Shown piece after piece: positions 34,158-44,096 of a DNA stretch of 64,000 nucleotides (positions are counted from its first letter, which is position 1; every line of letters starts with the position of its first letter). Source of the DNA: Akkermansia muciniphila (lineage in GTDB: Bacteria; Verrucomicrobiota; Verrucomicrobiia; Limisphaerales; BJHT01). Under the pieces are notes generated by a model. The model was given only the letters and a program-made list of their open reading frames with translations. It did not search any database and was not told the origin of the DNA. Both the position numbers and the translations under genes were made by a program. Where the stretch lies: the NCBI GenBank assembly GCA_945861535.1, contig CAMAUZ010000002.1, positions 1 through 64,000 on the forward strand, written 5' to 3'.

Positions 34158-35558
34158 ATGGTCTCAAATCGCACCCGCGGGGTCTATCTGATTTGCGTTT
34201 ACGGGCACCTCCTGCTCTCGCAGGCCTGTTTCTGGCTGTGGGCCGGGATGTTTAACCTCATGGGGATTATCAAACTCTTAGGTCCCGACACCCCAGCGCA
34301 TTTCCTCTACAGCGAAATCCTCTCCATCGGAGTGGTGCTGGGTGCTACCTTTGTGCGGGAGCGCAATGAGCTTATCGGCTCGGTGGTGGATGGGTCAAAT
34401 GGCGTCGCGCTGCGGCAAATCGTGACCGCCTATTGCTTGTTGTTTTTCTATCTTATTGCTTCCAAAGATACGGGCATCAGTCGGCTCTTCGTATTCACCA
34501 TGGTGGTCCCGCTTTATCTTACCCTGCATTTTGCGAACTGCCGTCTGCCTGCGCTCGTTCGCCGGCAGATGTTTCAAGGTGACCGCGAGGAACGAATCCT
34601 GGTCGCGGGGGGGATGGAAGGGTGGAATTGGCTGAGCGACTGGCTGCGCCGCAAGGAGCTGGTGGGCTATCGGACAGTGGGCCAAGTATGCGACGATGCG
34701 ACTGACTGCGGGAGCGGGCAGATTCTTGGCCGGCTAGGCGATTTGGAAAGGGTGATTGCGGCGCATCAAGTCACCCAACTGATTGTATCCGAGGCGGCCA
34801 TTCCCACCGGCTTTCTTGCCGGGGCGGCCGAGGTTTGCGAACGGCTCGGCGTCCGCCTTTTGGTTGTCAATGACATGGATCGCCATTTCAATCATCCGGT
34901 CACTCTGGTGGAGGATGATGGGATGCGTTTCCTTACTCTGCGTGTCGAGCCTTTGGAAAGTCCGTTCAATCGCATCCTCAAGCGCACGCTCGACATCGTT
35001 ATCGCCGCGCCGGTCACGGTATTTCTCCTGCCGTGCTCCCATCTGCTAGTGTGGCTGCTGCAGTGCTGGCAATCGCCCGGCCCGGTTTATTTCAAACAGA
35101 CCCGTGCAGGGATCCGAAACCGTCCGTTCATCATCTATAAATTCCGCACCATGCACGTAAACAGCGGGGACGAGTCGCGACAGGCGACAATGAATGACAC
35201 CCGCATCTTCCCCGCCGGACGCTGGCTGCGCAAACTGAGCATTGATGAACTGCCACAATTCTACAACGTCCTGCGCGGCGACATGAGTGTCGTCGGCCCC
35301 CGCCCGCACCTGATCCAGCACAACGATCTCTTCGCGCAGGCGATGAAGAACTATCATGTCCGTGCGATCGCCAAGCCAGGTATCACCGGCCTTGCCCAAG
35401 TGTGCGGTTTCCGCGGCGAGGCGACCACGCCGCAAGAGATCATCGCCCGCGTGGGAGCGGATGTGAAGTATCTGGAGACTTGGACCTTCCTGGGGGATTG
35501 CCTCATCGTATTGCGGACTTTACTGCACGTGATCGCTCCGCCCCGGAAGGCGGTTTAA
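34158..35558 (+). CDS. Undecaprenyl-phosphate sugar phosphotransferase (WbaP/WcaJ-type)
   Basis: A 466-residue enzyme that starts the repeat unit by moving sugar-1-phosphate to undecaprenyl phosphate at the inner membrane. The N-terminal third has several membrane helices, the middle a CoA-binding-like domain (ILVAGGMEGWNWLSDWL), and the C-terminal third the bacterial sugar transferase domain: LKRTLDIVIAAPVTVFLLPC, VYFKQTRAGIRNRPFIIYKF, RTM, and SIDELPQFYNVLRGDMSVVG followed by PRPH. It is transcribed away from the rest of the cluster. I chose the ATG at 34158 because the membrane domain starts there; the open frame runs 76 codons further back through the divergent promoter. Confidence 0.93.
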   Translation: MVSNRTRGVYLICVYGHLLLSQACFWLWAGMFNLMGIIKLLGPDTPAHFLYSEILSIGVVLGATFVRERNELIGSVVDGSNGVALRQIVTAYCLLFFYLIASKDTGISRLFVFTMVVPLYLTLHFANCRLPALVRRQMFQGDREERILVAGGMEGWNWLSDWLRRKELVGYRTVGQVCDDATDCGSGQILGRLGDLERVIAAHQVTQLIVSEAAIPTGFLAGAAEVCERLGVRLLVVNDMDRHFNHPVTLVEDDGMRFLTLRVEPLESPFNRILKRTLDIVIAAPVTVFLLPCSHLLVWLLQCWQSPGPVYFKQTRAGIRNRPFIIYKFRTMHVNSGDESRQATMNDTRIFPAGRWLRKLSIDELPQFYNVLRGDMSVVGPRPHLIQHNDLFAQAMKNYHVRAIAKPGITGLAQVCGFRGEATTPQEIIARVGADVKYLETWTFLGDCLIVLRTLLHVIAPPRKAV

Positions 35559-35933
35559 TCTTCCCGACCGGGGAGCATCATGGCAATGAGTCGGTAGGCC
35601 GTTCCGCCACGCGCCGCTCGCTGCAAGAGGGAAACGGTATCGCAGCGGGGGACTTCTTCTTGCAAAGGTGGTTCCCATCGATGGCGGTTGCATTCGCGGC
35701 CTCCAGTGTCGCCTTCCAATCGTCGCACTGATCGAAGGTATTTCGCTTTCTCCTTTTTCGGCCCTTTGGCTGGGTCTTACGGTTGTGGCAGCGGTGGAAC
35801 TGTCGACCGGCTGTTTTGATGCCAGTTTCAAGCTGCGCCCATTATTGGGTCTCGAACAAGTCTGGTTTTTGGGCTCGACAAAGGCCAGCCGAGCGAAGAA
35901 AGAACTCAAAAACAATCCACCTAATCCAAGGAT
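35559..35933. other. Spacer between the polysaccharide locus and the PEGA/ATPase operon
   Basis: These 375 bases hold no confident gene. On the plus strand an 89-codon frame, 35668-35937, has one hydrophobic segment (PFSALWLGLTVVAAVEL) and ends with a TGA overlapping the ATG of the next gene. That resembles the ATGA couplings seen further on in the same operon. On the minus strand a short frame ends at 35555 and reads like a decayed gene end, but I do not recognise it. The promoter of the operon should lie here. Confidence 0.4.
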
Positions 35934-37886
35934 ATGAACCCTTTGGGAAGGCCAGCGTCGCCTGATCGAGCTGCCGTCAAACGCCAGCGGCGGGCCTTTC
36001 GTCCCCTCATCATCTATCTGGTCTTCGCGTTGCCGGTGCTGGCTTGGGACATCCATGTCAAATTGGTGAAGAAGACCTTCCTGAGCGCGACGGTGACGCT
36101 CGAAGGCAGGCGATTGGAAGAGCCATTCCAGGTGCAGATCAACGGTCAGCCGCACGCGCTGAATCGGCCGGTATCGCCCGGCTTCAAGACCATCCGCTTT
36201 TCCAGCCGCGATACCGAAGTGTGGGAAATCAACCGGTTCGTCTGGTATGGGCAAAATCCGCTGGGTGACGTGACGCTGTTACGGAGTCGAGGCGATTTGC
36301 GCGTGGCGGTGCAACCCAAACCGCTGGAAGTCATCGTGACCGGGGCGTTGGCGAAATTGACGAGTTCCGAAGCAGAGCCGGTCTTTCGCGGGTTGCCGGT
36401 GGGCGATTACCGGGTGCGGATGCGGTTCCAACATTTTGAGCGCGAACTTACGGTGCGCGTCGAGCGGAGCATCATGGCCACCGTGGCGGACAAGTTCGCC
36501 GTCGGCTTCCTGCATCTCGAAATCGAACCGGCCGGTGGACGGTACGAACTGCGGAGCGTTCCCAGTGGGAATCTGCGATTGAGTGGCGAACTCCCCGCCA
36601 TGCTGACGAATCTGCCACCGTTGAACTACCAACTCGAACTCACGCGCGGCGATTATCCCAAGAGCCGGACGTTCTTCTTGAGCGGGGGCCAGACCAATCA
36701 AGTGCGGGAAGTGTTCGAATATGGGCAGGCGAACATCACGACCGAACCGTCTGGGGCGACCGTGATGATGGGAGAACGCATCGTGGGCAAGACACCGCTG
36801 CTGTTGAAAGAACTCAAGCCCGACAGCCAGACGATCCAGGCGGCGTTGGAGGGGTATCTGCCGGTTCGCTGGACCGTGGACATCCAAACCAACCTGACCG
36901 TGATGCTCGCGACGAATCTGGTCAGCTTGCGCTACTCCGAAGCGATGGACCGGGCCAACGCCGCCCTGAACAACTACCCGCGTGACTATCGACTGGCTCT
37001 CACGAACCTCACGACAGCACTAACCGTCATACCCGGCGATCCCGCCGCCACCCGCCTGCGGCAGGAAACGCAATACCAACTTCACATCAAGGACGGACGG
37101 AGTGCCCTGTCCGCGGGACAAATCCCGGCGGCAACCAAGTCCGTGGAAGCGGCGCTGGCACTCAAGCCCGCGGGAACGGAAGCCGTGGGCTTGCGCGCGG
37201 ACATTCAAGGAGCGGAACGCGACGCCGAAGACCGGCGGCAACGGGAGGTGGAGCAAAAGGCCACCGAAGTGCGACGTCTCGCGGCCATGGAAAAGGCGGC
37301 AGCGCAGCAGAAGGCCGAACAGGAACAACGGCGACTGGAGGCGGAGAAAGCGGCGGCCGAGGCGAAAAACGTCGAAGAACAGCGGAAGCTGGCCATGGAA
37401 AAGGACGCAGCCCGGGCAAAGGCCGAAGAGGAGCAACGTCGGATCACCGCCGAAAAGCAGGCAGCCAATCAGCGGCGGGAACAAATGCTGGCCGAAACCT
37501 TCGCCAAGGCATTGGAGAAAACTCCGCCCGGTCAACGAGTGACGTGGCGAACCAGTGTAACCCAGAGCGAAGCGGCCAGCGCTCTGACCCGCGCCATTGG
37601 GCAATTGCCCCAACGCTGGAACGTCCTCACCAAGACAGATGGTGATGGCCTGGAGCAGTACTCCCTCGTCGGAATCGGATTGCCGGGGGCGACGCAGCGC
37701 GCGCTGGTGCAATGCGCCCAACTGAGCGAGTTCACCGAAGTGCGGGTGGCCTTCTGGTCGCAAGAAATCAAGGGTCTGCTCGGCATCACCTTCCGGTATG
37801 ATGGTGCCGTGGCGGAGAAACTGCGGGGAGTGGAGCCGCTCTTTCGCGAGAAGTGGCAGAAGGAACTCGGAAAACCCCTCCAATGA
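35934..37886 (+). CDS. Membrane PEGA-domain/coiled-coil protein, first gene of an ATGA-coupled operon
   Basis: A 650-residue protein with an N-terminal membrane helix (PLIIYLVFALPVLAW) after a basic cytoplasmic tail. A beta-rich region follows, including a PEGA-like module around 260-310 (ANITTEPSGATVMMGERIVG, then KTPLLLKEL). Next come a helical TPR-like segment with YRLALTNLTTALTVIPGDPA and a long charged coiled coil (about 420-530, repeats of AAMEKAAAQQKAEQEQRRLE type). A globular C-terminus ends the chain (VAFWSQEIKGLLGITFRYDG). PEGA modules usually bind extracellular or surface structures. The stop overlaps the next start as ATGA. Its function is unknown; the context suggests a role at the membrane with a VirD4-like ATPase. 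Confidence 0.75.
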   Translation: MNPLGRPASPDRAAVKRQRRAFRPLIIYLVFALPVLAWDIHVKLVKKTFLSATVTLEGRRLEEPFQVQINGQPHALNRPVSPGFKTIRFSSRDTEVWEINRFVWYGQNPLGDVTLLRSRGDLRVAVQPKPLEVIVTGALAKLTSSEAEPVFRGLPVGDYRVRMRFQHFERELTVRVERSIMATVADKFAVGFLHLEIEPAGGRYELRSVPSGNLRLSGELPAMLTNLPPLNYQLELTRGDYPKSRTFFLSGGQTNQVREVFEYGQANITTEPSGATVMMGERIVGKTPLLLKELKPDSQTIQAALEGYLPVRWTVDIQTNLTVMLATNLVSLRYSEAMDRANAALNNYPRDYRLALTNLTTALTVIPGDPAATRLRQETQYQLHIKDGRSALSAGQIPAATKSVEAALALKPAGTEAVGLRADIQGAERDAEDRRQREVEQKATEVRRLAAMEKAAAQQKAEQEQRRLEAEKAAAEAKNVEEQRKLAMEKDAARAKAEEEQRRITAEKQAANQRREQMLAETFAKALEKTPPGQRVTWRTSVTQSEAASALTRAIGQLPQRWNVLTKTDGDGLEQYSLVGIGLPGATQRALVQCAQLSEFTEVRVAFWSQEIKGLLGITFRYDGAVAEKLRGVEPLFREKWQKELGKPLQ

Positions 37887-38620
37887 GCACGAACATCCCC
37901 AGCGTCTGGTCCTGGTTCACTTTCCCCTTCCGGTTTTTGGCCGGGGCGCGGGAGCGGCTGCAAGTGCGCGGCAGCGAGGAGATTTCCCAGTGGGCCAAGC
38001 CGTTCGAGCAGTTCAACTATTCGCCGCAGGAGTTCTACAAGCTGGTCGAAAGGAACTTGGAAACGCGGAAAATTCCGGGAGCGGCGGCGGAATGGCGGGC
38101 GATCCATGAAGGCAACATCCTGTCGCCGGAACGGCTTTACCTGAACATCCAGCGGGAACGCCTGCTGTTCGTGCTGTGTGCTGCGCCGTTCGGCAACGCG
38201 TTCTTTGTCTCGTGTCGGTTGCTCGACTACCGCTCCGGCGCGAACCTGTTTGATTACCTGGTCGGCGTGGTCCTGCTGCTGGGTGTCAGCTTCGCGGTCT
38301 TCACCGAATACGGACTTATTCCCGGCCTGTTCGCTCTGGGCCTGCTGGTCACGCTGTTCTGGTCGCTGTTTCGACGGGCTGTTACTGTCGGCGGCGAGTG
38401 GCTGGATGAGAAAATCGCCGACGTGCCGATCATCGGGCCGATCTATGAAAGCCTGTTCCGACCCGACACTTATTACCGGCGCGACACGGCGGAGATGTTC
38501 CGGCAACTGACACACAACGCGGTCATGCAGGCGGTTGACGAGATGACGACCGAGAAAGGGATTCGCGGGCTGACCGAAGAAGAGCGCAAGCCAGTCGTGC
38601 GCAACTTGTATAAGCGATGA
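37883..38620 (+). CDS. Conserved-looking membrane protein, second gene of the operon
   Basis: A 245-residue protein with a soluble N-terminal 90 residues (EISQWAKPFEQFNYSPQEFY and VERNLETRKIPGAAAEWRAI). About three hydrophobic helices follow (LLFVLCAAPFGNAFFVSC, FDYLVGVVLLLGVSFAVF and LIPGLFALGLLVTLFW), and then a cytoplasmic tail with YYRRDTAEMFRQLTHNAV. The start ATG overlaps the upstream stop and its own stop overlaps the ATPase start, both as ATGA. I do not recognise the family. It may be the membrane platform for the ATPase encoded next. Confidence 0.75.
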   Translation: MSTNIPSVWSWFTFPFRFLAGARERLQVRGSEEISQWAKPFEQFNYSPQEFYKLVERNLETRKIPGAAAEWRAIHEGNILSPERLYLNIQRERLLFVLCAAPFGNAFFVSCRLLDYRSGANLFDYLVGVVLLLGVSFAVFTEYGLIPGLFALGLLVTLFWSLFRRAVTVGGEWLDEKIADVPIIGPIYESLFRPDTYYRRDTAEMFRQLTHNAVMQAVDEMTTEKGIRGLTEEERKPVVRNLYKR

Positions 38621-41600
38621 GCGCGCCGTTCTCCGTCGCGGAAGTGCTGACGAAGCAGTTTTACGACTGGGAACTGCGCGGGCGCGGCTGGCAGGTGTGG
38701 GAATCACCGGTGGAACCCGAACCGCCCTTTCGCCCCTTCACCGGTCATCATATCCCGCGAAACTTCTTTGCGGACGACGGTCGGGTGGAACCCACAGGCT
38801 GGCGCAAGGCGCTGTTCGGCCAGCCTGCCGCCGTGCCGCCCATTCTTCCCGAACCGTCGCCGGACGAACTGGAGCCGGCAGCGGAATTCATTCAGAGCCT
38901 GCCCGACCTGATCGAGATGCAACTGGCGTTGCCCCCCAACAGCCAGCCGAAGGCGGACGTGTTTGAGCAACTCCTATCCAGCCTCCATTACTGCCGGCGA
39001 CCGCTGGCCTTCGAAGTGGTGGGGACGGGCGAGTCACTGGTGATGCAGATGGTGGCGGAACACTGCGACGTCGGCCAGGTCGCCCCGCAACTCAAGGCGC
39101 ATTTTCCCGAAGCCGTGATCGAGCCAAAGCGGGACTTTCTGAAAAGCGAGTGGGAACGGACCGACGCGGGCCACACGGTGTTGCTCGATTTCGGACTGGA
39201 CCGGGAATTCATGCTGCCCCTCATGACGAAGAACTTCGCCACCGATCCGTTGGTGGGCGTGACCGGAGCGCTGGAGCGCCTCGGTGTCAGCGAACTGGGC
39301 GTCCTGCAAATCCTCTTCACCCCGACCCGGCACCCGTGGGCGGAGAGCATCCTGCGAGCGGTCTGCACCGAGAAAGGGGAGCCATTCTTCGAGAACGCGC
39401 CCGAGATGCTGGCTGGCGCGCGGCTGAAAATATCTCGTCCGCTATACACCGTGGTTGTCCGCGTGACCGCCCGTTCCCGCGACGAAAAGCGGGCGTGGCA
39501 GATTGCCAAGGGACTGGCCGGCGCGCTGTATCTGTTCCGCAATTTGCAGGGCAACGAACTGGTCGCGCTCGACAACGAGTTTCCCGACGAGGAACACGGG
39601 CTGGACTTCATCCACCGGCTCACCCGCCGCAGCGGGATGCTGCTCAACAGCGATGAACTGGTGGCGTTGGCCCACCTGCCCACGGCGGCGGTTCGTTCAC
39701 AAAAGCTCCAGCGCCAGACCCGGACCACACGCGCCGCGCCGGACTTCGCGGCGCATGACGGCGTGCTGCTGGGAGCCAACGAGCACGAGGGCGCAACGCG
39801 GCCGGTGATGTTGACGGCGGAGCAGCGGATGCGGCACACGCACATCATCGGGGCGTCCGGCACGGGCAAATCGACGCTGCTCCTGAACCTGATCGTGCAG
39901 GACATTCACCGGGGCGAAGGTCTGGCGGTGCTCGATCCGCATGGGGACTTGATCGACCGGATTCTGGACTACATCCCGCCCAGCCGCTGGGACGATGTGG
40001 TCATGGTGGACCCGTCGGATGAGCAGTTTCCCGTCGGGTTCAACATCCTGTCAGCGCACACGGATTTGGAGCGGACCCTGCTGGCGTCGGATTTGGTCGG
40101 CGTGTTTCAGCGCCTCTCCACGTCATGGGGCGATCAGATGACCAGCGTGCTCGGCAACGCGATCCTCGCGTTTCTGGAAAGCGACCGGGGTGGAACCCTG
40201 CCGCAACTGCGGCGGTTTCTGATCGAGCCGGAGTTTCGGAAGGAGTTTCTCACGACAGTCAAAGACCCGGAGGTGGTGTATTACTGGCAGAAGGAGTTTG
40301 GATTGGTCGGCGGCAAATCGCTCGGCCCGCTGCTCACGCGGCTGGACACGTTTCTCCGCCCCAAGGCGATTCGTTACATGGTCGGGCAGTCGGCCAACCG
40401 GCTGAACTTCGGGGACATCATGGACTCGGGCAAAATTGTGCTCGCGAAACTGCCGCAGGGATTGATCGGCGAGGAGAACGCCTTCCTGCTGGGCTCGGTG
40501 TTGGTGGGCAAGCTCCAGCAAATGGCAATGGCCCGGCAGGCCCAGCAGGTCGCCGCCCGCAAGGACTTCTATCTCTACATCGACGAGTTCCATCACTTCA
40601 TCACGCCCTCGATGGCGGCCATTCTCACCGGGGCGCGGAAATACCGGCTGGGGTTGGTACTCGCGCATCAGGAAGTACGGCAATTGCAGCGCGACTCGGA
40701 CGTGGCCGGCGCGGTGATGGCGAACCCGGCGACGCGCATCAGTTTCCGGGTGGGGGATGAGGATGCGCGCCGGCTGGCGGACAGTTTCGCGGGGTTCACG
40801 GCGCAGGATTTGCAGAACCTCGACACCGGCGAAGCGCTGTGCCGGATGGAAAGGTTTGCGTTCAATCTGCGAATCGCGCCGCTGCCGCCGGTGGAACCCA
40901 GCGCCTATACCCGCGACGCGATTTACCAGCGATCCCGGCAAAAGTATGCCACCGCCCGATCTGCGGTGGAGGAGGAACTCGCCCGCAACCGCACCCAGGC
41001 GGAGCCGGAGCCAGTGGAGCGCGTGGACCCGTTTGCCAAGCGCAAGGCGAAGGCGGACGCGCCCTTGGCAGCCGAAGCACCGGCGGCTTCACCGGTCCAA
41101 AAGCCGGTAGCGGAAACGCCGCCTGTGGCTGCGCCGCCTCCGCCGTCACCCGTTCGGAAACCCCCACCCGTTGTGGTGGTGTCGAAGGCTCCGGAGCCAC
41201 CACCCGAGCCATCCCAGTCCGGCAAGGGTGGACCACAGCATCGCAGGCTTCAGGAAACCTTTAAGTTGTTGGCCGAGGGGTTGGGTTGGCGTGCTTCAAA
41301 AGAGGAAAAGGTGTCAGGCGGTCTGGTGGACGTGGTCTTCGGCAAGGGGAAGATCACGGTGGCGTGCGAGATTTCGGTGACCACCGGCGTGGACTATGAA
41401 CTCGGCAATCTCCGCAAATGCCTCGGTGCGGCATTCACGCACATCGTCATGGTGAGCGAAGACCCGAAGCACCTGACCAAGATCGAGACGGCGGCGAAGA
41501 AGCAGCTTTCGGCAACCGAGTTGGCGAGGATTCGTTTTCTCGAACCCGATGGCTTGATCCGGTGGCTGGAAGAACTCACCGCCGCGCAGGCGGGCGGGGA

Positions 41601-41736
41601 GAAGACGGTCAAGGGCTACCGGGTTTCGACCTCCTACGAAACGATCAACCATGCGGAGAAGCGCAACCGCAAGGAGGGAATTGGCGAGGCGGTGGCCCGA
41701 GCCATGCGCCGGAGCGGGGAAGGCGGCAAACCGTGA
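38617..41736 (+). CDS. VirD4/HerA-like ATPase with C-terminal nuclease-like domain
   Basis: A 1039-residue protein. Residues 1-400 are an N-terminal domain with several alpha/beta blocks (LLSSLHYCRRPLAFEVVGTG, DAGHTVLLDFGLDREFMLPL). The ATPase domain has Walker A IIGASGTGKSTLLLNL at about 409-424, the LAVLDPHGDLIDRI strand, the Walker B-like DFYLYIDEFHHF, and QEVRQLQRDSD near the end. This is the TraG/VirD4-HerA architecture for moving DNA. A Pro/Ala-rich linker (about 800-870) leads to a C-terminal domain with LVDVVFGKGKITVACEISVT, the D/E-x-S pattern of PD-(D/E)XK-like folds but without the usual Lys. Role (conjugation, DNA uptake or defence) is unresolved. Confidence 0.8.
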   Translation: MSAPFSVAEVLTKQFYDWELRGRGWQVWESPVEPEPPFRPFTGHHIPRNFFADDGRVEPTGWRKALFGQPAAVPPILPEPSPDELEPAAEFIQSLPDLIEMQLALPPNSQPKADVFEQLLSSLHYCRRPLAFEVVGTGESLVMQMVAEHCDVGQVAPQLKAHFPEAVIEPKRDFLKSEWERTDAGHTVLLDFGLDREFMLPLMTKNFATDPLVGVTGALERLGVSELGVLQILFTPTRHPWAESILRAVCTEKGEPFFENAPEMLAGARLKISRPLYTVVVRVTARSRDEKRAWQIAKGLAGALYLFRNLQGNELVALDNEFPDEEHGLDFIHRLTRRSGMLLNSDELVALAHLPTAAVRSQKLQRQTRTTRAAPDFAAHDGVLLGANEHEGATRPVMLTAEQRMRHTHIIGASGTGKSTLLLNLIVQDIHRGEGLAVLDPHGDLIDRILDYIPPSRWDDVVMVDPSDEQFPVGFNILSAHTDLERTLLASDLVGVFQRLSTSWGDQMTSVLGNAILAFLESDRGGTLPQLRRFLIEPEFRKEFLTTVKDPEVVYYWQKEFGLVGGKSLGPLLTRLDTFLRPKAIRYMVGQSANRLNFGDIMDSGKIVLAKLPQGLIGEENAFLLGSVLVGKLQQMAMARQAQQVAARKDFYLYIDEFHHFITPSMAAILTGARKYRLGLVLAHQEVRQLQRDSDVAGAVMANPATRISFRVGDEDARRLADSFAGFTAQDLQNLDTGEALCRMERFAFNLRIAPLPPVEPSAYTRDAIYQRSRQKYATARSAVEEELARNRTQAEPEPVERVDPFAKRKAKADAPLAAEAPAASPVQKPVAETPPVAAPPPPSPVRKPPPVVVVSKAPEPPPEPSQSGKGGPQHRRLQETFKLLAEGLGWRASKEEKVSGGLVDVVFGKGKITVACEISVTTGVDYELGNLRKCLGAAFTHIVMVSEDPKHLTKIETAAKKQLSATELARIRFLEPDGLIRWLEELTAAQAGGEKTVKGYRVSTSYETINHAEKRNRKEGIGEAVARAMRRSGEGGKP

Positions 41737-41738
41737 GG

Positions 41739-41984
41739 CTATTTCTTCCGAACCAGATACACCGGCCCGTCCACCCGATAGTCCGAAAAAGTTTCGATGA
41801 TGCGCTTGCGCAGCAACTGAAAACCTTTGTGCGGGTGTTCCTCGGCGTAAAAGATGGCAGGGCGCGAAACCTCCAAGTCCCGTGCCGCTTGGGCGCGGTT
41901 CTTGCCGGTTGCCTCACGACATTGCTTGGCCAGGGCCGCGAGACCCGCGTCGTCCACTGTCTTGGGTTCTTTTGGTGTTGCCAT
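41739..41984 (-). CDS. Small HTH protein, probable regulator of the recombinase
   Basis: An 81-residue protein. Its core TGKNRAQAARDLEVSRPAIFYA folds as a helix-turn-helix of the XRE/Lambda-repressor type: AARDLEVS is the turn and SRPAIFYAEE the recognition helix. It converges on the VirD4-like gene with a 2-base gap and diverges from the serine recombinase gene. Upstream lie two TGACCA sites one helical turn apart, a plausible operator. The ATG at 41984 is preferred over one 17 codons upstream, which starts outside the fold. It may control excision or integration. Confidence 0.7.
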   Translation of the reverse strand: MATPKEPKTVDDAGLAALAKQCREATGKNRAQAARDLEVSRPAIFYAEEHPHKGFQLLRKRIIETFSDYRVDGPVYLVRKK

Positions 41985-42068: not shown

Positions 42069-44096
42069 ATGAAAACCATCCCTTTCCCCAAAGATCAACT
42101 CCCCAAGGCGGTCGGCATCTGGATTCGCGTCTCGACCGAAGATCAGGCGCGGGGCGACAGTCCGGAACATCACGAGCGGCGTGCGCAAGCCTACGCCGAG
42201 TCGCGGGACTGGCACGTCAAGGAGGTGTATCGCTTGGCCGGCGTCAGCGGTAAGGACGTGCTTACCCATCCGGAAACCAAGCGGATGCTCGAAGACGTGC
42301 GCAAGGGACACATCACCGGCCTGATTTTCTCGAAGCTCGCCCGGCTGGCCCGGAACACCAAACAGCTCTTGGAGTTCGCCGACCTGTTCAAGGCGTCCGG
42401 GGCCGATCTCATTTCCTTGCAGGAGTGCATCGACACCTCGTCCTCGGCCGGCCGGTTCTTCTACACGATGATCGCCGCCATGGCCGAATGGGAGCGCGAG
42501 GAGATCGCCGACCGGGTGGCCGCCTCGGTGCCGATCCGCGCCCAGATGGGCAAGTCCCTCGGCGGCAGTGCGCCCTTCGGTTACCAATGGAAGGACAACC
42601 AACTCATCCCGCACGAACAAGAGGCCCCGGTGCGCAAGTTGATCCATGAGCTGTTTCTGGAATTACGCCGCAAGAAGGCGGTGGCCCGGGAACTCAACCA
42701 GCGCGGGTATCGCACCCGGAAAGGCGGACTGTGGACCGATACCGCCGTCGAGTGGCTGCTCCGCGATCCGTCGGCCAAGGGGCTGCACCGGAAGAACTAC
42801 GTCACGCACCGGCTGCCGGGCAAGCAGTGGGCGCTCAAGCCGGCGTCCGACACGATTCACTTTCCGATCCCGGCGTTGATTTCGGTGGAGACGTGGGAAA
42901 AAGCTTTCGCCCTGCTCGAAGAAGGACGCCTCAAACGGCAACGTCCGGCCAAGCGGACGGTGCATCTGTTCGCCGGGTTCGTGTATTGCGAATGCGGCAC
43001 CAAGATGTATGTCTCGTCCGACACCCCGAAATACCTCTGTCAGGAGTGCCGGAACAAGATTCCGATCGTGGACTTGGAAGCAATCTTCTACGAACAGCTG
43101 CGCGGCTACTTTTTGTCCGGCGAAGAAGTGGCCGGGTATCTCGGCAAAGCCGATGCCGCGCTCAAGGAAAGTGAGGAACTGGCGGTGACGCTGAAAGCGG
43201 AACGGGACGCCACCCAGAAGAAGATCGACCGCCTCTACGACGACTATGGGGCCGAACGGTTGACCGGCGACCAGTTCAACCGGCTGTTCCAACCGCTGGA
43301 CACCCGGATCAAACAGTTGGACGAAGAACTGCCCAAAGTGGAAGCCCGGGTGACGGTGCTCAAAGTTGACCACCTGTCGAGCGACCGGATTTTGACGGAA
43401 TCCAAAGACCTGTACGACCGCTGGCCGCTCTTGAACCACGACGAGAAGCGGCAAGTCGTTGAGGGCGTGACCGTAAAGATCGTCGTGGGGAAAGGAGAAG
43501 TGGCCATTAAACTGGCCTTTTTTCCCGGCTATGAAGACCTCGTAAATGAGCAAAGAACCGTGGGCGGGTGCGGTCCCCGGCTGGGGAGCGCACGTCGCTG
43601 GCGTGCGGTTTTCGGCGGCGCTCCGAAAACTCGTGCCACCCACATTTTCCCGCGGCGGCGGCGGAGGCAGACTGGGGAACGAGGGTTTGGGCGGGCCGCC
43701 CAAACCGGCACGCGGGCCGCGTGCGCTCCCCGGGTTTCTCGCGAGGGCGCGAAAAACTGCACCCGGGGGCGGGTGCGGTCCCCTAGCTTCGGGCTTCGCG
43801 TTGAAGTCGGCTCAGAGCCCTTTGACTTCCCACCCTTTGCGATAGGTGCGGCGGACGTATTGGTTGGCGTCGGGGTGGTTGGGGAATTTGAGGGTGGCGG
43901 CGTCCCACTCGAGGGTGGTCATGGGGAAGCGGCTGGCGACGCCACCGAGGAGGATGGTTTCGGTGAGGGGACCGGAGTAGCCGAAGTGGGCGGAGGTCTG
44001 GCCTTCGCCGCGGCAGGCGGAGACGAACTGACCCCAGTGATTGGCACCATCGACCTTGGGCATCTGGTAGTCTTTGAATTGTTCGACTGGGAATAG
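42069..44096 (+). CDS. Large serine recombinase, with unusual C-terminal read-through
   Basis: The first about 490 residues are a complete large serine recombinase. The catalytic serine S22 is in IWIRVSTEDQARGDS, and LARLARNTKQLLE and MAEWEREEIADRV are the resolvase motifs. Then come the recombinase domain, a zinc ribbon (CECGTKMYVSS and CQEC) and a coiled coil (about 375-425). It likely integrates or excises the element. After VNEQRTVGG (near 43550) the frame runs on for about 180 codons as low-complexity Arg/Gly-rich sequence, ending antisense to the Gfo/Idh gene. That tail is probably not native: the normal stop appears lost at the element boundary. The start at 42069 is preferred over a TTG at 42030. 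Confidence 0.88.
   Translation: MKTIPFPKDQLPKAVGIWIRVSTEDQARGDSPEHHERRAQAYAESRDWHVKEVYRLAGVSGKDVLTHPETKRMLEDVRKGHITGLIFSKLARLARNTKQLLEFADLFKASGADLISLQECIDTSSSAGRFFYTMIAAMAEWEREEIADRVAASVPIRAQMGKSLGGSAPFGYQWKDNQLIPHEQEAPVRKLIHELFLELRRKKAVARELNQRGYRTRKGGLWTDTAVEWLLRDPSAKGLHRKNYVTHRLPGKQWALKPASDTIHFPIPALISVETWEKAFALLEEGRLKRQRPAKRTVHLFAGFVYCECGTKMYVSSDTPKYLCQECRNKIPIVDLEAIFYEQLRGYFLSGEEVAGYLGKADAALKESEELAVTLKAERDATQKKIDRLYDDYGAERLTGDQFNRLFQPLDTRIKQLDEELPKVEARVTVLKVDHLSSDRILTESKDLYDRWPLLNHDEKRQVVEGVTVKIVVGKGEVAIKLAFFPGYEDLVNEQRTVGGCGPRLGSARRWRAVFGGAPKTRATHIFPRRRRRQTGERGFGRAAQTGTRAACAPRVSREGAKNCTRGRVRSPSFGLRVEVGSEPFDFPPFAIGAADVLVGVGVVGEFEGGGVPLEGGHGEAAGDATEEDGFGEGTGVAEVGGGLAFAAAGGDELTPVIGTIDLGHLVVFELFDWE
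43550..43811. repeat. Element boundary region with 17-bp direct repeat and inverted words
   Basis: The word GGGCGGGTGCGGTCCCC occurs at 43562-43578 and again at 43767-43783. The inverted pair GGGGAGCGCACG (43583) and CGTGCGCTCCCC (about 43718) lies between them, as does a small hairpin GTTTTCGGCGGCGCTCCGAAAAC. The recombinase frame passes through this region. It may be an attachment site or simply a dispersed repeat; no matching copy was found near the start of the operon. Confidence 0.5.

Follow-up and report, generated by a model that had tools for sequence, protein, structure and literature searches.

Introduction

Integrative and mobilizable elements (IMEs) of streptococci are known in which PF13814, recognized as the MobC relaxase superfamily, occurs together with a serine integrase and a VirD4 protein (PMC5357655), and in Thermus the element ICETh1 uses the ATPase TdtA together with a NurA-like nuclease for DNA donation (PMC5365140, PMC7767461). 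In Proteobacteria, comM is a known insertion site of mobile elements, which have been proposed to benefit from the disruption of transformation (PMC4774983). In the present study, we analyzed a locus within a 64,000-nucleotide stretch of DNA (the window) and found that three of its genes are one end of a mobile-element family inserting in bacterial chromosomes, often in comM. The combination of an ATPase carrying a nuclease-fold tail (ATPL) with a constant membrane partner (MEM) is a real and widespread element core. A search of the open literature found no paper describing the family, which is not proof of novelty; the ATPL core itself is of the known coupling type.

Gene Organization of the Window Locus

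The locus comprises the following features, with coordinates given in the window:

35934..37886, forward strand: PEGA protein, 650 aa (PF08308, E=3.7e-11)
37883..38620, forward strand: MEM, 245-aa membrane protein (AlphaFold2 pLDDT 90.9; hydrophobic spans at 122 and 145)
38617..41736, forward strand: ATPL, 1039-aa coupling-protein-type ATPase (TrwB_AAD_bind, E=1.4e-9; SXT_TraD, E=6e-14)
41206..41733, forward strand: predicted PD-(D/E)XK-fold C-terminal domain of ATPL, residues 864-1039 (model pLDDT 85.8)
41739..~41984, reverse strand: small divergent HTH protein (weak HTH_31 match)
42069..43558, forward strand: large serine recombinase (Resolvase PF00239, E=1.1e-29; Recombinase PF07508, E=7.2e-15)
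43558..43783, no strand: copy of a dispersed chromosomal repeat (dozens of genomic copies; longest matches begin at 43558-43562)

The genes are thus ordered PEGA, MEM, ATPL, the opposite-strand HTH gene, whose start is presumably the ATG at 41984, and the large serine recombinase. At both the PEGA/MEM and the MEM/ATPL junctions an ATGA is present in which the start codon overlaps the stop codon, confirming the coordinates and the coupled junctions originally reported for the three ORFs. An integrase lies directly beside the three genes: ATPL is followed by the HTH gene and the recombinase, both of which had been left out of the original prediction. The recombinase matched the phrog_95 integrase with E=1.1e-98, and its ORF extends to 44096, through flanking chromosomal sequence. 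The repeat at 43558-43783 is partly palindromic. No mating-pair genes were seen in the window, in agreement with what had been noted before.

ATPL Is Related to Coupling-Type ATPases

An alignment of 64 relatives divided ATPL into an N-terminal region, a VirD4/TrwB-like core at about residues 380-800, a proline-rich linker and the nuclease-fold tail. The TrwB_AAD_bind model scored 37.8 bits against a cut-off of 20.5, which identifies a TrwB/TraD-related P-loop core, and TraD-type models, including SXT_TraD, matched far under their equivalog cut-offs. The assignment to VirD4/HerA-type ATPases made in the original prediction was upheld by these HMM matches on the VirD4 side; HerA models matched weakly, and the HerA equivalog NF040819 reached 10.9 bits against a cut-off of 970, so that ATPL does not qualify as a HerA protein. 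A VirB4-type identity of the N-terminal region was dropped, as this region has no Pfam match. The PADLOC model mad8 matched ATPL with E=1e-17, covering the generic ATPase core only, and short ATPases of the family score alike; mad8 was the only MADS component matched, and the scanned window neighbours had no PADLOC match, so the locus does not show mad8 together with the other mad genes. No hydrophobic span was found in ATPL by a simple hydropathy scan, and it accordingly lacks the same-chain N-terminal TM anchor of a T4CP.

Two plasmid-encoded ATPases were also matched by the 1024-position ATPL profile: one of 886 aa from Bacillus subtilis (E 1e-54, profile positions 123-836) and one from Embleya (E 8e-92, profile positions 264-758). 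Both matches stop short of the nuclease tail. On both plasmids a replication-relaxation gene lies directly 3' of the ATPase gene, and the neighbours include TcpE and conjugal transfer proteins in Bacillus and PrgI and NlpC/P60 proteins in Embleya. Since these distant homologues adjoin a Replic_Relax gene in conjugation-type operons, ATPL is most likely a coupling-type DNA translocase, as judged from sequence relationships, and the same setting would be compatible with ATPL coupling a relaxosome to a type IV channel. These operons are the strongest evidence for a DNA-transfer role of the family.

The C-Terminal Tail Is Predicted to Adopt a Nuclease Fold

The AlphaFold2 model of the tail domain (pLDDT 85.8) has a restriction-endonuclease-like fold. 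Comparison of the model by VIA gave AF1548 (Z 10.1), two EndoMS-type enzymes (8.8-9.1), BamHI (8.5) and FokI (8.1), followed by Hjc-type resolvases (Z about 7.5), and Bax1, AF1548 and EcoT38I were among the best Foldseek matches, supporting the prediction that the tail is a PD-(D/E)XK nuclease fold. In the alignment, E896 and D905 were present in 64 of 64 relatives and E918, E928 and K934 in 63 of 64. Position 920, which holds the lysine of the classical E-x-K motif, was S, C, T, A, G or N in 63 of the 64. The PD-(D/E)XK-like tail with E-x-S described earlier was thus recovered both as a motif and as a predicted fold, and a complete active site was not: D905 and E918 of the D...E-x-K triad are conserved, and position 920 is not lysine. 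K934, by its conservation, may stand in for the absent lysine. Because the lysine of E-x-K is absent, the tail could also bind DNA instead of cutting it.

MEM and ATPL Form the Conserved Unit

In the MEM model (pLDDT 90.9) a two-helix hairpin is set into a soluble alpha/beta domain, and the two hydrophobic spans listed above were found by a hydropathy scan. MEM had no family match in a profile search and no clear relative among solved structures. As ATPL is without a hydrophobic span and MEM has two, MEM is a plausible anchor for ATPL. The PEGA protein of the window has a single N-terminal hydrophobic span at about residue 24, the PEGA domain and a coiled-coil-like stretch.

In a survey with a home-made ORF caller, profiles built here for the families and 10 kb flanks, all of which make the locus counts lower bounds, MEM lay directly 5' of ATPL in 63 of 71 loci having at least 1 kb of upstream sequence, and in 55 of the 65 pairs called the two genes were separated by -4 to +15 bases. 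PEGA was detected in only 5 of 65 relatives with enough upstream sequence, and in 5 of 8 distinct loci its gene ran in the opposite direction. A serine recombinase was found 3' of ATPL in 29 of 70 loci and a small HTH gene in 11 of 70. The conserved unit is the MEM-ATPL pair, linked to a recombinase, with PEGA as an accessory. The ATGA-coupled three-gene module of the original prediction was therefore reduced to two genes: its MEM/ATPL junction and its MEM partner are general, whereas the PEGA/MEM junction and the PEGA partner are not. A free-standing three-gene system was dropped for the same reason, PEGA being optional.

Distribution of the Family

The window genome (7.94 Mb, 169 contigs) encodes a second long ATPase, 52% identical to ATPL, on contig C69 (locus L004) and a short ATPase paralogue on contig C70 (L005). 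The second long ATPase lies at the end of its contig, and C70 starts with the genes for the short ATPase, Replic_Relax, primase and ArdC; the two pieces look like one larger element broken by assembly. ATPase matches were obtained in 10 of 58 genomes searched, comprising the window genome itself, one of the same genus and others of the same order, a patchy occurrence within the order such as mobile DNA would show.

A profile scan of named genomes yielded at least 551 relatives of ATPL, and 79 loci were kept, labelled as Verrucomicrobia, Acidobacteria, Bacteroidetes, Planctomycetes, Gemmatimonadetes, Patescibacteria and others, although most of them are metagenome bins whose individual taxon labels may be wrong. 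Isolates among the hosts are Mucilaginibacter, Pedobacter, Lacibacter and Brevifollis. Verrucomicrobia-type relatives carry genes for Replic_Relax (PF13814), a CHC2/Toprim primase and ArdC/RadC, the same gene families as on C70, and Replic_Relax was found 5' of ATPL in 6 of the 55 loci for which 9 kb of upstream sequence was available. Relatives also hold restriction and other defence-type cargo, which varies while the MEM-ATPL pair is constant.

A phage origin was rejected, as matches in the phage collection span about half of the ATPase at about 23% identity. Bacillus phage SPO1 gp27.4 and phage G gp156, among phage hits H41-H60, are distant ATPase homologues. A plasmid origin was likewise rejected, as PLSDB contained no ATPL match covering 80% of the query and no MEM match at all.

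Many Relatives Are Inserted in comM

One half of comM was located near the element in many loci, and two genomes of the order had the comM model split across contigs, with one half on the element contig. In several genomes both halves were on one contig, which allowed six elements of about 23-46 kb to be delimited. Cultured hosts of a complete comM element include Pedobacter frigiditerrae RP-1-13 and Mucilaginibacter phenanthrenivorans BJC16-A38. The break in comM occurs after the MNP codons in the motif AAMNP-CPCG, at the same codon in many elements. In the six delimited elements the N side of comM runs into a TGA stop and the C side restarts with TGY, so the likely crossover dinucleotide, as read from these junctions, is TG. 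GTTGCC and GGCAAC arms flank both junctions in several relatives, and would fit a serine-integrase attP. In one relative the recombinase gene ends inside a tRNA-Ser gene. With a serine recombinase beside comM or tRNA junctions, the relatives have the integrase at the edge and the defined site of an ICE.

All six complete elements share a serine recombinase (in some of them the recombinase cluster includes a second one), ATPL, MEM, a short ATPase and small HTH proteins. A Pfam scan of the larger unassigned proteins in three of the six, with a few exceptions, revealed no relaxase, T4SS or phage structural family, and the Replic_Relax profile detected nothing in any of the six. T4SS genes were found neither in the proteins scanned nor among the recurring families listed. 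A comM-inserted element of Mucilaginibacter contains an intact internal comM (L176:9219-10760), 88-90% identical to the disrupted outer halves, which may restore host function. A RuvX-like protein (L169:3676-4155 and relatives) occurs in four of the six complete elements, and an adjoining 76-aa protein in five.

Edges and State of the Window Copy

The right edge of the window element is most likely at or before 43558, as the dispersed repeat begins at 43558-43562. On the left, the region searched, 35540-35960, occurs only once in the genome and yielded no edge, and there was no convincing pair of direct repeats bounding the element. Insertion in a tRNA gene was rejected because none was found here, and insertion in comM because this genome has an intact comM on another contig; the window copy thus lies elsewhere. 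In the same-genus genome, searched for an empty site, the Gfo/Idh neighbour is 95% identical, with the match restricted to residues 1-345 of 444, and the left neighbour of the element has no close match.

The short ATPase is not in the window, the other ATPase matches of the genome being on C69 and C70, and no primase or Replic_Relax was seen near the window copy. The window ORFs, including that of the recombinase, are intact with full motifs, and recombinase ends reaching into the target site were also observed in two relatives (L034 and L038). We regard the window copy as probably reduced or helper-dependent, and the genes on C69 and C70 may serve it in trans.

Discussion

We consider it reasonably probable that the window genes form the DNA-translocating core of an integrative mobile element, in which the ATPL pump, MEM and the nuclease tail export the DNA of the element. 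According to this model, the large serine recombinase would insert and excise the element at a specific site, and ATPL would act as a ring ATPase of the coupling-protein type that MEM holds at the membrane. The PD-(D/E)XK tail might cut or trim the element DNA fed into the pump, which would then push it out of the cell or into the channel of another element, with PEGA as an optional envelope anchor. In favour of the model are the MEM-ATPL pairing, the link to a recombinase, the common gene set of the six comM elements, the plasmid homologues, the fold and conserved residues of the tail, and the hydrophobic spans that MEM has and ATPL lacks. Against it, no T4SS gene was found among the proteins scanned, the complete elements scanned showed no relaxase, the window copy is without the short ATPase, and the tail is without the E-x-K lysine. 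It is an unlikely extension of this model that integrative elements of several phyla export their own DNA with neither a canonical relaxase nor a type IV channel, using a pump and a nuclease in one protein tethered by MEM, and that their insertion in comM disables the transformation helicase of the host.

Quite possible, though short of probable, is that the family consists of integrative and mobilizable elements, whose ATPL and MEM dock a relaxosome to a type IV channel that another conjugative element in the same cell provides, the Replic_Relax/MobC-type relaxase being their own or supplied in trans and the nuclease tail a minor processing part. The Replic_Relax, primase and ArdC/RadC genes of some members and of C70 fit such elements, as does the streptococcal IME class that joins a serine integrase, PF13814/MobC and VirD4 (PMC5357655). 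The rarity of Replic_Relax 5' of ATPL, its absence by profile from the six complete comM elements and the retention of a tail with near-invariant residues argue against it. For the window copy alone, it is somewhat unlikely that it is a non-functional remnant kept by chance: the missing short ATPase, primase and Replic_Relax and the recombinase ORF continuing into the flanking repeat would be expected of a remnant, but the ORFs are intact and recombinases of relatives likewise reach into their target sites.

The original prediction had left a choice among a transport, a defence and an element-maintenance machine. The link to mobile elements was strengthened by the large serine recombinase near by, while a free-standing defence system was disfavoured by the finding that the pair is the constant core of larger integrative elements. 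We regard it as very unlikely that MEM-ATPL is an element-borne defence or anti-competitor system in which a HerA-like pump and the nuclease tail degrade invading DNA at the membrane. The mad8 match and the weak HerA matches, together with the restriction and other defence-type cargo of relatives, would point to such a system, but mad8 recognizes only a generic core shared with the short ATPases, and the cargo is variable where the pair is constant. A DNA-transfer role is better supported than defence because the distant homologues on plasmids have a Replic_Relax/MobC-type gene as neighbour in operons of the conjugation type.

Members of the family occur widely in phyla whose gene transfer is little understood, with cultured Mucilaginibacter and Pedobacter among the hosts. 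They allow one to ask directly whether a coupling-type ATPase that is fused to a nuclease domain and has one membrane partner can move DNA.

Comparison with Known Systems

The DUF87/VirD4-type ATPases of Bacillus and Streptomycetaceae plasmids belong to the same family as ATPL over most of the protein; in contrast to ATPL, they are without the PD-(D/E)XK tail and sit in operons with channel-type genes, and the plasmid collection gave no MEM match. Streptococcal IME class 8 (PMC5357655) resembles the present elements in combining a serine integrase with a coupling-type ATPase, and Replic_Relax is found in some members of the present family, whereas the scanned complete comM elements show none; the present family adds the nuclease tail, MEM and a second, short ATPase, and occurs in other phyla. 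ICETh1 is alike by description, as it is integrative, combines a DNA-pump ATPase with a nuclease and has no T4SS reported, but it has a tyrosine-type (XerC) integrase, a separate NurA nuclease and a tRNA site. With the Proteobacterial comM elements (PMC4774983) the present family shares insertion inside comM, and its hosts belong to other phyla, so that comM disruption by mobile elements is extended to further phyla.
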